NCBI GenBank assembly: GCA_024281175.1
Contig: JAMJTW010000009.1
Coordinates: 59,037 to 102,808, forward strand
Direction: 5' to 3'
Length of the DNA stretch: 43,772 nt
Source: Candidatus Thiovulum imperiosus
GTDB taxonomy: Bacteria; Campylobacterota; Campylobacteria; Campylobacterales; Thiovulaceae
Shown here: positions 21,025 to 35,294 of the stretch, one piece after another
Layout: every line of letters begins with the position of its first letter
Numbering within the stretch: position 1 is the first letter of the stretch
Notes under the pieces: generated by a model
The model's database searches: none
The model's input: only the letters and a program-made list of their open reading frames with translations
Told to the model about the DNA's origin: nothing
Program-made: the position numbers and the translations under genes

Positions 21025-21044
21025 AAGAGTCTAAAAAGACTCTT
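21025..21044 (-). terminator. Hairpin after gspD
   Basis: AAGAGTC (21025-21031), 6-base loop, GACTCTT (21038-21044) in the 88-bp gap between gspD and rpe. The same arms recur in hairpins at 32010 and 37840, suggesting a favoured terminator sequence in this genome. Confidence 0.6.
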
Positions 21045-30940: not shown

Positions 30941-31978
30941 ATGAAAAAGTTATTTTTGTTAGTTCTCTCTATTTCACCTCTGTTTAGCGAGATTTCTGTT
31001 TTTGGTGCTGGGGATTTGAGTTCTGATAGTCCTTACGGTTTGACAGAGAGTGAAAAGCAGATAGTTGAAAATAGAGAGAGTATTGAAAATGTTTCGAAAG
31101 AGACAAAAAAGATAGATACAAAAGTGGAGACTCTAAATGATACAGTTAGAGTTTTACGAGAACTGATACAGAATGTTGGTAGACAAAATGTTGAACATCA
31201 GATGAAAATCTCTAAATTGATGGATGACTTGAAGCAAAATCACCTTATTACAGAAATTAAGTATAAGGAGATTTCAGAAAACATCTCTTCTACACAGAGT
31301 CAAGTTAAGAAGCAAGAAGAAGAGACTGCTAAAAGTTTGAATGATAAAATCAAAGAGAGTTTTCAGAGAGTAAACAGCGTTCTTTTAGAGCAGGAGAAGA
31401 GACTTCAAAAAATTGAAGAGGAGATTGATAGAGATTTTAAATCTATTCAAAACAAACTTCTAACAATTCATAAAGATATTGAAACTATAAATAGCAATTA
31501 TGTTACTCAGAAACAGCTAGATTTTGTTGTAAGTGAATTCAACGCTTTTAAAGAGACTGTAATTGGCGAATTTGAGAAGATGTCAAAATATCAAGATGAC
31601 TATTATGATTTTGCAAAACACTCTAACCCTGATATATTTAAAGATGGCGTTGAGATGTTTCGTCTTGCTAAATATAAAGAGGCGATAAAACTTTTTAAAC
31701 ACCTCATCACCAAACATTATAGACCAGCTACTGATAACTTCTACATTGGAGAGTCTTATTACTATTTAAATGAGTACTCTCTTGCTGTAAAACATTATAA
31801 AGATAGTGTCTCTATTTATGACAAATCTAGTTTTATGCCAACTCTACTGCTTCACTCCGCAATCTCTCTTGAGAAAATTGGAGATAGTAGAGAAGCTCAA
31901 ATTTTCTATAAAGTTCTGCAAACCCAATATGGAGATACTCCTGAAGGGAAAAAGGCAAGTGAACTTATCTCTAACTAG
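30941..31978 (+). CDS. cpoB: Tol-Pal cell division coordinator CpoB/YbgF
   Basis: 345 residues, starting at the base after the pal stop. A signal peptide (KKLFLLVLSISPLFSE) is followed by a long coiled coil (about 35-215; VENRESIENVSKETKKIDTK, LEQEKRLQKIEEEIDRD) and C-terminal TPR repeats (FKDGVEMFRLAKYKEAIKLFKHLI, FYIGESYYYLNEYSLAVKHYKDSV, AISLEKIGDSREAQIFYKVL). CpoB is periplasmic and coordinates peptidoglycan synthesis with outer-membrane constriction. The coiled coil is longer than in E. coli (263 residues in total there). Confidence 0.92.
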   Translation: MKKLFLLVLSISPLFSEISVFGAGDLSSDSPYGLTESEKQIVENRESIENVSKETKKIDTKVETLNDTVRVLRELIQNVGRQNVEHQMKISKLMDDLKQNHLITEIKYKEISENISSTQSQVKKQEEETAKSLNDKIKESFQRVNSVLLEQEKRLQKIEEEIDRDFKSIQNKLLTIHKDIETINSNYVTQKQLDFVVSEFNAFKETVIGEFEKMSKYQDDYYDFAKHSNPDIFKDGVEMFRLAKYKEAIKLFKHLITKHYRPATDNFYIGESYYYLNEYSLAVKHYKDSVSIYDKSSFMPTLLLHSAISLEKIGDSREAQIFYKVLQTQYGDTPEGKKASELISN

Positions 31979-32005
31979 AGTTGATGAGGTTTTTCCTCAT
32001 CGACT
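31979..32005. terminator. Terminator built from an inverted pair of the GATGAGG/CCTCATC word
   Basis: AGTTGATGAGG (31979-31989), five T, CCTCATCGACT (31995-32005): 11-bp arms with one G-U pair, between convergent cpoB and carB. The arms contain the over-represented word GATGAGGT and the complement CCTCATC in inverted order, as uptake sequences do in Neisseria and Haemophilus terminators. Confidence 0.7.
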
Positions 32006-32009
32006 TAAA

Positions 32010-32036
32010 AGAGTCTGTAATTTTGAGATAGACTCT
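32010..32036. terminator. Second hairpin before carB end
   Basis: AGAGTCT (32010-32016) and AGACTCT (32030-32036), 13-base loop, directly after the previous hairpin. Its arms resemble those at 21025 and 37840. Confidence 0.45.
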
Positions 32037-32048
32037 TCTATTATAAAT

Positions 32049-35000
32049 CTACTCCATCTCTAAATAGTCTTGAATTGGATTTACTTCAAAACGGTGTTGG
32101 TTCATCTCTTTTAGGGCTTCTGCCGTAGCTTTGGTTGCTGAAAGAGTTGTAAAGTAAGGAATATTTTCTCGAAGAACAGTTTGTCGTATCTGTTTTGCAT
32201 CAGATTTAGAAGCACGATTGTCGGAAGTATTTACAACAAAAGCGATTTCACCATTCTTAAGTTTGTCATCAATATTAGGTCGTCCCTCACTAACTTTAAG
32301 AACAACTTCACTCTGGATACCATTTTCAGCAAAATACTTATGAGTTCCAGAAGTAGCAACAAGTTTAAAACCTAAGTCGATGAGGTCTTGAGCTATTTCA
32401 AGAGAGTGAGATTTGTCAATATCTGTTAGAGAAAGGAACACTTTTCCACTTCTTGGAATTGGGTTTTTAGAAGCGAGTTGCGATTTTGCAAAAGAGGTTG
32501 GAAAAGTTTCTGAAATCCCCATAACTTCACCAGTTGATTTCATTTCAGGCGAAAGAAGTAAATCTGCTCCATCCAGTTTGTTGAATGGGAAAACTGCTTC
32601 TTTCACAGCGATATGATTTTTAAGTTTCGGTTTTAAAATATCTCCATCTCGGTATACAACTTCGTATTTGTCATAAAATCTTAGAGCTTCCTCCAACTTT
32701 TCACCCAACATAACTCTAGTTGCAACTTTTGCAAGTGGAATACCCGTTGTTTTTGAGACAAATGGAACTGTTCGTGAAGCTCGTGGATTTACCTCAATTA
32801 GGAAAACCTCATCATTATAAATTGCGTATTGAGTATTCATAAGTCCTCGAACACCCAAGCCAAGAGCGATAGTTCGAGTTGTCTCATCTATTTCAGCAAG
32901 AATTTTTTCTGAAATAGAGACTGTTGGTAGCGAACAAGCCGAGTCTCCAGAGTGAATTCCAGCCTCTTCAATATGTTGCATAACTCCACCAACATAAACA
33001 CTCTTTCCGTCCGAAATTGCATCAACATCTAATTCTATCGCTCTATCTAAAAATTGGTCTATCAGAACTGGAGAGTCGTTGCTTACAGAAACAGCTTCGT
33101 CCATATAGTTTTCGAGTTCCTCTTTGTTATATACAATTCTCATAGCTCTACCACCGAGAACATATGATGGTCGAACAAGAACTGGATATCCAATTTCGTA
33201 AGCTATTCGATACGCCTCCTCTTTTGTATAAGCAGTACCATTTTCAGGCTGTTTCAAATTGTGATTTCTAAGAAATCGTGCAAACTTTTCTCGGTCTTCT
33301 GCAATATCTATTACAGATGCTTGAGTTCCCGCAATATTTGCACCATACTCTGTAAGTGCATTTGCAAGTTTTAATGGTGTCTGTCCTCCAAAATGGACGA
33401 TGATACCGTCTGGCTCTTCTCGGTCGATTACAGAAGAGACATGTTCAAAATCGATAGGTTCAAAGTAGAGTTTATCACTTGTATCGTAATCAGTAGAGAC
33501 TGTTTCAGGATTACAGTTATACATAATACTTTCGACACCCATATCTTTGAGAGCAAATGAGGCGTGAACACAGCAGTAGTCAAATTCGATACCTTGTCCA
33601 ATTCGGTTTGGACCTCCACCAAGAATTAGAACTTTCTTCTTTCGACTCTTCTCATCTTCTATCTCTTCCAACTGGTTCTTCTCAATAGTAGAGTAGAGAT
33701 ATGGAGTTAGTGCTTCAAACTCTGCTGAACAGGTATCAACTTCATTATATTGGTGTTTAATTCCAAGTCGCTTTCGAGATACTCGAACTTGGGTTTCAGA
33801 AAAGCCCGAAAGTTCAGCGATTTTTGAGTCTGAAAATCCCATACTTTTTGCTTCTCGAAGTAGTGTTTCATTTTGAAGAATTGAGTAGTCGATACTCTCT
33901 TCAAACTTTACAAGCTCTTCGATATGGTAGAGAAACCAAGGGTCGATTTTACACATTCCAAAAATGCTCTCAACACTTTCACCCCGTCGAAACGCTTCAG
34001 CAACATAGAGAACTCTGTCACTATTTGGTCGTCGAAGTTCATGAAAAACTACATCATCTGGAATACCTCGAAATTTTTTGAAACCATCTAAACCAGTCTC
34101 AAGACTCTGAAGAGCTTTCTGAATAGACTCTTTGAAAGTTCGACCCATCGCCATAACTTCACCAACAGATTTCATAGAAGTTCCAAGAGTAGAAGATGCT
34201 TCTGGAAATTTCTCAAAAGTAAATCGTGGAATTTTCGTTACGACATAGTCGATAACAGGTTCAAAAGAAGCTGGAGTTCCTGTAATGTCGTTTGTGATTT
34301 CGTCTAAAGTGTAGCCGACCGCAAGTAGAGTAGCCACTTTTGCAATTGGATATCCAGTAGCCTTACTTGCAAGAGCAGAGCTTCTTGAAACTCTCGGGTT
34401 CATCTCGATTACAGTCATTCGCCCATTCTCTGGATTTACCGCAAATTGAACATTACTACCACCTGTATCAACTCCAATTTCTCGCAAGATGTCAAAAGAG
34501 AGATTTCGCATATGTTGATACTCTTTATCAGTCAGAGTTAGAGCTGGAGCAATTGTAATAGAGTCTCCTGTATGAACTCCCATCGGGTCGAAGTTTTCGA
34601 TTGAGCAGACGATGATACAGTTATCTTCCCTATCTCGAATTACTTCCATCTCATACTCTTTCCAACCAAGAAGAGACTCCTCAATTAGAATTTCTGTAAT
34701 TGGAGAGATGTCAAGCCCTTTTTGAGCAATTTCCTTGAACTCTTCTATATTGTAAGCTACACCACTTCCACCACCTGCGAGAGTAAAAGAGGCTCTAATG
34801 ATTAGTGGAAATCCAATCTCATTTGTTACAGCAATAGCCTCTTCCAAAGTGTAGGCGTATTTCGATTTTGGTAAGTCAATACCAAGTTTCTGCATCGCCT
34901 CTTTAAATTTCTGTCGGTCTTCACCTTTTTTTATCGCTTCAGGTTTTGCACCAAGAAACTCAATTCCCTCTAACATTCCCTTTTCATGCATACTCATTGC

Positions 35001-35294
35001 AACATTTAGCGCCGTCTGCCCTCCCATTGTTGGAAGAATTGCATCGATACTCTCCTTTTTTATAATGTCAGCAATTACATTTTCATCGATAGGCTCAATA
35101 TATGTCCTATCAGCAAATTCAGGGTCAGTCATGATAGTAGCGGGATTGGAATTTATTAGAACTACTCGATACCCCAAACTTTTCAGAGTCTTTACAGCTT
35201 GAGTTCCAGAGTAGTCAAATTCAGAGGCTTGTCCAATTACAATTGGTCCTGAACCAATTAGCAGTATCGTTTTTATATCTTCTCGTTTTCCCAT
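32049..35294 (-). CDS. carB: Carbamoyl-phosphate synthase, large subunit
   Basis: 1081 residues, full length. Two ATP-grasp halves are visible: [20 protein letters not shown] and later [31 protein letters not shown] and [26 protein letters not shown] near residue 830. An oligomerisation region lies between them, and an MGS-like allosteric domain is at the C-terminus ([18 protein letters not shown]). The enzyme makes carbamoyl phosphate for arginine and pyrimidines using ammonia from CarA. carA is not adjacent. About 340 bp of repeat-rich DNA separates it from the divergent surface-protein gene. Confidence 0.97.

Follow-up and report, generated by a model that had tools for sequence, protein, structure and literature searches.

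The window, i.e. the whole stretch of 43,772 nucleotides that was analysed, contains a cpoB-like gene and carB in convergent orientation, and the 70 bp between the two hold two hairpins lying side by side. The features of this locus are the following:

30941-31978, + strand: cpoB-like gene of 345 aa, arranged as tolB-pal-cpoB and terminated by TAG at 31976-31978 (ORF, homologues)
31979-32005, no strand assigned: hairpin 1, 11-bp stem with a 5-nt loop TTTTT (sequence, RNA fold, hairpin scan)
31983-31990, + strand: exact word GATGAGGT, local form TGATGAGGTT (sequence, word counts)
31995-32001, - strand: second arm of hairpin 1, CCTCATC (GATGAGG on the - strand), 7 of the 8 word letters matched (sequence)
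32009-32037, no strand assigned: hairpin 2, AAGAGTCTGT...ATAGACTCTT, stem of about 10 bp, AAGAGTCT type (fold)
32049-35294, - strand: carB, for the large subunit of carbamoyl-phosphate synthase, 67-74% identical to CarB of Campylobacterota (ORF)

The cpoB-like gene has one homologue in each of four genomes of the family and fragments in a fifth, with 40-62% identity, and the cpoB-carB pair is non-adjacent in the relatives, where other genes come after cpoB. In G004, one of these relatives, the homologue (G004:C1:1371466-1372423; L146-L148) appears interrupted by in-frame stops or frame changes, which may reflect assembly error or gene decay.

The 11-bp hairpin that the first-pass annotation had placed between convergent cpoB and carB, with GATGAGGT on one arm and CCTCATC on the other, does exist. 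Positions 31979-32005 read AGTTGATGAGG-TTTTT-CCTCATCGACT, where the stem comprises 10 Watson-Crick pairs and one G.T, its first base directly follows the cpoB stop and its last base stops 43 nt short of carB. As + strand RNA, the structure folds at -15.8 kcal/mol (z -6.5) and beats 200 out of 200 shuffles. The exact word is present in the left arm only, that is one copy and not two, the right arm retaining 7 of the 8 letters, and the stem reaches 4 bp past the words. No T-run follows hairpin 1 on either strand (+ TAAAAGAG, - CTAGTTAG). The argument that the missing T-run rules out hairpin 1 was nonetheless downgraded: the gene-end hairpins of the family are mostly devoid of T-tails and, since the T content downstream of those of the window's genome is about that expected by chance, this feature is not excluding by itself.

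Hairpin 2 (AAGAGTCTGTAATTTTGAGATAGACTCTT) starts 3 nt beyond hairpin 1 and is of similar length; on the - strand, i.e. on the carB side, TTTT comes next. A near-identical copy occurs at L130:17824. Hairpins with a AAGAGTCT arm constitute the commonest gene-end type of the genome and are intergenic in 13 cases out of 14 (397 kb sampled). Like hairpin 1, the AAGAGTCT...AGACTCTT hairpins lie between gene ends, have a stem of 8-12 bp and a weak or absent T-tail; unlike hairpin 1, their stem word is unrelated to GATGAGGT and they are far more specific to intergenic regions. They were observed in the window at 21025, 32009 and 37841, as well as in other sampled stretches of this genome, a strong T-tail being usually absent. 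As indicated by the hairpin scan, the commonest gene-end stem word in the genome is AAGAGTC, not GATGAGG, and the density of hairpins amounts to 8.5 per kb between convergent genes vs. 0.96 in coding sequence (9x). A generic terminator scan listed neither of the cpoB-carB hairpins; it found fewer sites than in shuffles and is hence not counted as evidence. As a 3'-end element of the usual sort at this place, hairpin 2 is a better candidate than hairpin 1, and it is the likelier candidate terminator for carB.

Besides these hairpins, a repeated intergenic element, GTCATTTCGAA...GAGAAATCT, partly foldable, is present several times in the window and also in other stretches of the same genome. Its positions in the window are the following:

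35346, 37893, 39508, 43637: TCATTTCGA copies of the repeated intergenic element
10258, 19547, 35606, 37898, 39480, 39513, 39577: TCGAAATGA copies of the repeated intergenic element

Regarding the word GATGAGGT itself, counts were made in the genome of the window (G000; 2,199,814 bases in 36 contigs) and in four relatives of the same family (G001 to G004). The word had been described as over-represented, and the counts bear this out, with 30 occurrences in the window where 1.19 (1.1-1.2) would be expected, which makes it the top 8-mer by z-score, and 1,565 copies in the genome, 782 on the + and 783 on the - strand, against 103 and 101 copies (204 in total) of the reversed control word. It is found in all five genomes of the family at 733-1,565 copies, i.e. 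about 0.4-0.95 per kb, and is near background in all 55 other genomes of the order, none of which exceeds about 200 copies (60 genomes counted); it is absent from the named relatives L008-L021 of the genome collection, from which no orthologous pairs were obtained. Compared with a first-order expectation, the excess reaches 31-fold in G000 and 57-fold in G004 (about 400 kb each), whereas the 24 one-letter variants in G000 stay around background level or lower, apart from some (positions 3, 6 and 7) that reach up to about 2.6-fold. In other words, the enrichment is extreme, exact, strand-symmetric and restricted to the family. The core of the word is identical in the five genomes and the flanks differ, with mostly T-GATGAGGT-T in G000 (T at -1, 0.62; T at +1, 0.54), C-GATGAGGT-C in G001 (C at -1, 0.77; C at +1, 0.66; stretches L196-L204) and a G at +2 in G003 (0.65). 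These species-specific flanks are possible dialects and resemble those of Neisseriaceae, codon context also contributing. Outside genes, the word is if anything depleted in the G000 sample (11 copies vs. 19.6 expected) and in threefold excess in the G004 sample (L102-L121, L156-L174; 106 vs. 37, with 62% of the words inside genes); as the sampled stretches were picked for holding pairs, the intergenic share may be slightly inflated, a bias that renders the depletion in G000 conservative but the excess in G004 less so, and pair rates were for the same reason drawn from genome-wide searches only.

Genome-wide, pairs of the word separated by a spacer of 0-30 comprise in G000 9 convergent and 7 divergent ones (8.6 expected each) together with 10 direct ones vs. 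17 expected, 4 of the latter 10 originating from one 15-bp tandem repeat. This repeat (G000:C5:82950-83017) lies within a gene and carries GATGAGGT in each unit (GATGAGGTTTCTGAA). If the arms are shortened to 7 letters, with the spacer limited to 30, the convergent pairs number 9, hairpin 1 among them, the expectation of 8.6 being that for 8-letter pairs. Among 11 distinct convergent pairs, 8 are in genes; of the other three, 2 lie between convergent genes and 1 lies where a long gap separates co-directional genes. The divergent pairs that could be located are all inside genes (5/5). Gaps between convergent genes represent 1.06% of the G000 sample and yet hold 2 of these 11 pairs (P about 0.006, from small numbers and with genes called by a simple ORF method). 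The second of these tail-to-tail pairs, at G000:C31:61600-61622, has the spacer CGTAAAA and, there again, an extended stem. The pair at the cpoB end had been taken by the first-pass annotation as independent support for an uptake sequence, and this claim does not hold: pairs are at chance number in G000 and mostly in genes, intergenic words are depleted, and the support expected from hairpin 1 is further undercut by the lack of a T-run and by a hairpin of the usual type 3 nt away.

The situation in the relatives is contrasted. In G004, most likely the cave species Ca. Thiovulum stygium, inverted pairs total 54 vs. about 9 expected, namely 23 convergent and 31 divergent (4.4 expected each), with 1 direct pair vs. 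8.8 expected. Gaps between convergent genes, just 2.25% of the sequence, hold 24 of the 53 that were located; 23 more fall between co-directional genes, a single one between divergent genes and the remaining 5 in genes. GATGAGG is there the commonest gene-end stem word in the stretches examined, which were picked for pairs. An enrichment of inverted pairs within 30 bp at gene 3' ends, proposed earlier as a check, is accordingly missing by number in G000 and present in G004 (54 vs. about 9). Convergent and divergent pairs number 10 and 0 in G001, 2 and 0 in G002, and 6 and 8 in G003, for expectations of 7, 2.2 and 9.1, respectively, so that no excess of inverted pairs by total number is seen in G001-G003, marine genomes like G000, where direct pairs are also below expectation. 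Of note, G001 has no divergent pair and a single direct one (7 and 14 expected), G002 being likewise nearly without them, and the convergent pairs of both genomes are at or slightly over chance and mainly in genes. The inverted-pair hallmark is present in the family, in G004, and hairpin 1 alone gives it no support.

It is fairly probable that the Thiovulum family possesses a DNA uptake sequence, of which GATGAGGT would be the core, hairpin 1 being an occasional pair, either co-opted or due to chance. The uptake reading is partly supported, by the family-wide data and not by the site of hairpin 1. The word would tag self DNA for uptake by a competence type IV pilus-like system and the pilus would bind it, two steps that we infer. 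With the word dense on both strands, opposite copies would sometimes fall close to each other, and hairpins made of inverted pairs would thus form from time to time because GATGAGGT is so frequent. Such pairs would arise by chance and then be retained as hairpins at gene ends whenever they are of use, an idea proposed for Neisseria by Kingsford and others (PMC1852404). At the cpoB end, a full word and a 7/8 copy, with a stem 4 bp longer, may have provided a gene-end hairpin of this kind, and hairpin 1 and the adjacent AAGAGTCT hairpin probably act jointly as the 3'-end element of cpoB. Co-option of pairs would be occasional in G000 and systematic in G004, and hairpin 1 would fit an early or isolated case.

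As for the machinery, the ComEC (PF03772) and DprA (PF02481) families are represented in 5/5 genomes of the family; both comEC and dprA are common in non-competent bacteria as well. Type IV pilus genes have been reported in every Thiovulum genome (PMC9938260). The model of the ComP_DUS receptor (PF16732) found no match in the five family genomes and does find ComP in Neisseria wadsworthii. In Pasteurellaceae, the receptor candidate is a different one, PpdA/ComN being predicted (PMC12616744).

Several other explanations have to be weighed. That hairpin 1 is a chance pair without any role, hairpin 2 alone forming the 3' ends of both cpoB and carB, is somewhat unlikely though the most serious alternative: the number of convergent pairs in G000 (9 vs. 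8.6 expected, mostly in genes) is what chance would give, and hairpin 2 belongs to the commonest gene-end type, with TTTT on the carB side, but the stem of hairpin 1 is longer than the words by 4 bp, its location between convergent genes is improbable under chance, small as the numbers are, and G004 shows this arrangement systematically. The possibility that GATGAGGT is a chromosomal signal, i.e. Chi (RecBCD/AddAB), an FtsK-orienting sequence or another DNA-binding site, and has nothing to do with uptake, is unlikely. Such signals are likewise short, exact and frequent, and the ComP_DUS model revealed no known uptake receptor gene in the five genomes; however, Chi- or KOPS-like sites follow the direction of replication, and the strand counts of GATGAGGT are even within stretches, with a chi2 of 10.2 over 21 stretches in G000 and of 9.9 over 20 stretches in G004, both below the degrees of freedom, which argues against a replication-oriented signal. 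Besides, inverted pairs at gene ends mark genomes with uptake sequences and would be unexpected for oriented signals.

A systematic use of inverted uptake-word pairs as terminators in G000 itself, as hairpin 1 and the second tail-to-tail pair could suggest, is highly improbable, as it is contradicted by the genome-wide pair counts, whose total is at chance with 8/11 convergent and 5/5 located divergent pairs inside genes, as well as by the intergenic depletion of the word and by AAGAGTC as the top gene-end stem word. Lastly, an origin of GATGAGGT as a coding by-product, through GAT GAG GTN (Asp-Glu-Val) or codon bias, is refuted: 160 of 297 in-gene copies in G000 do read as Asp-Glu-Val and synonymous-codon shuffles retain 59 of the 168 sense copies, but in-gene copies far exceed such shuffles, above all in antisense (124 vs. 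2.4 in G000, 81 vs. 4.8 in G004), and the word is also in excess between the genes of G004.

Returning to the uptake sequence, it is rather probable that GATGAGGT represents the first DUS outside Neisseriaceae and Pasteurellaceae, of independent origin in Campylobacterota, in the family of the giant sulfur bacterium Thiovulum, with species-level dialects in its flanks and an independent co-option of inverted pairs as gene-end hairpins in the cave lineage. Within the family, the marine genomes, whose pair numbers are at chance, contrast with the cave genome, whose pairs have become gene-end hairpins. If true, a third and unrelated case of uptake sequence, in another phylum, would make it possible to test by comparison what gives rise to such sequences and whether gene-end inverted pairs follow from them; hairpin 1 by itself is of little importance in this respect.

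Among known systems, the closest in phylogenetic terms is that of Campylobacter jejuni, whose self-DNA recognition (RAATTY) depends on the methylation of a common 6-mer and not on an over-represented word; GATGAGGT, in comparison, is at background in the 55 genomes of the order outside the family. Literature searches on GATGAGGT or on uptake sequences in Campylobacterota returned nothing relevant. In Neisseria and Pasteurellaceae, gene ends are documented to carry inverted pairs of uptake sequences (PMC1852404, PMC3630211), as the first-pass annotation had rightly stated for Neisseria and Haemophilus. Like the USS of Pasteurellaceae (AAGTGCGGT), GATGAGGT occurs on both strands and mostly in genes, with a minority of copies in gene-end hairpins, and its copy number is comparable to the 1,471 copies of the USS in H. 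influenzae (PMC1852404); it differs in being an unrelated word without the long AT-rich extended motif, preferences being seen only at -4, -1, +1 and +2. Regarding the DUS of Neisseriaceae (GCCGTCTGAA and its dialects), GATGAGGT is an unrelated 8-bp word from another phylum, with no ComP_DUS match and with unenriched pairs in G000, and the hairpins of Neisseria have about 3.3 A before and 3.2 T after, whereas the pairs of G004 lack such tails. Conversely, both are strand-symmetric and family-wide, with small differences of the dialect kind, for which the DUS is known (PMC3630211), and their abundance is similar, with about 1,900 copies of the DUS per 2.2 Mb vs. 1,565 copies of GATGAGGT in G000. 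The likeness is most marked between G004 and Neisseria meningitidis Z2491: in the latter, 94 of 231 hairpins are tail-to-tail and same-orientation pairs are rare (PMC1852404), just as the inverted pairs of the former are concentrated between convergent genes and its direct pairs are rare.
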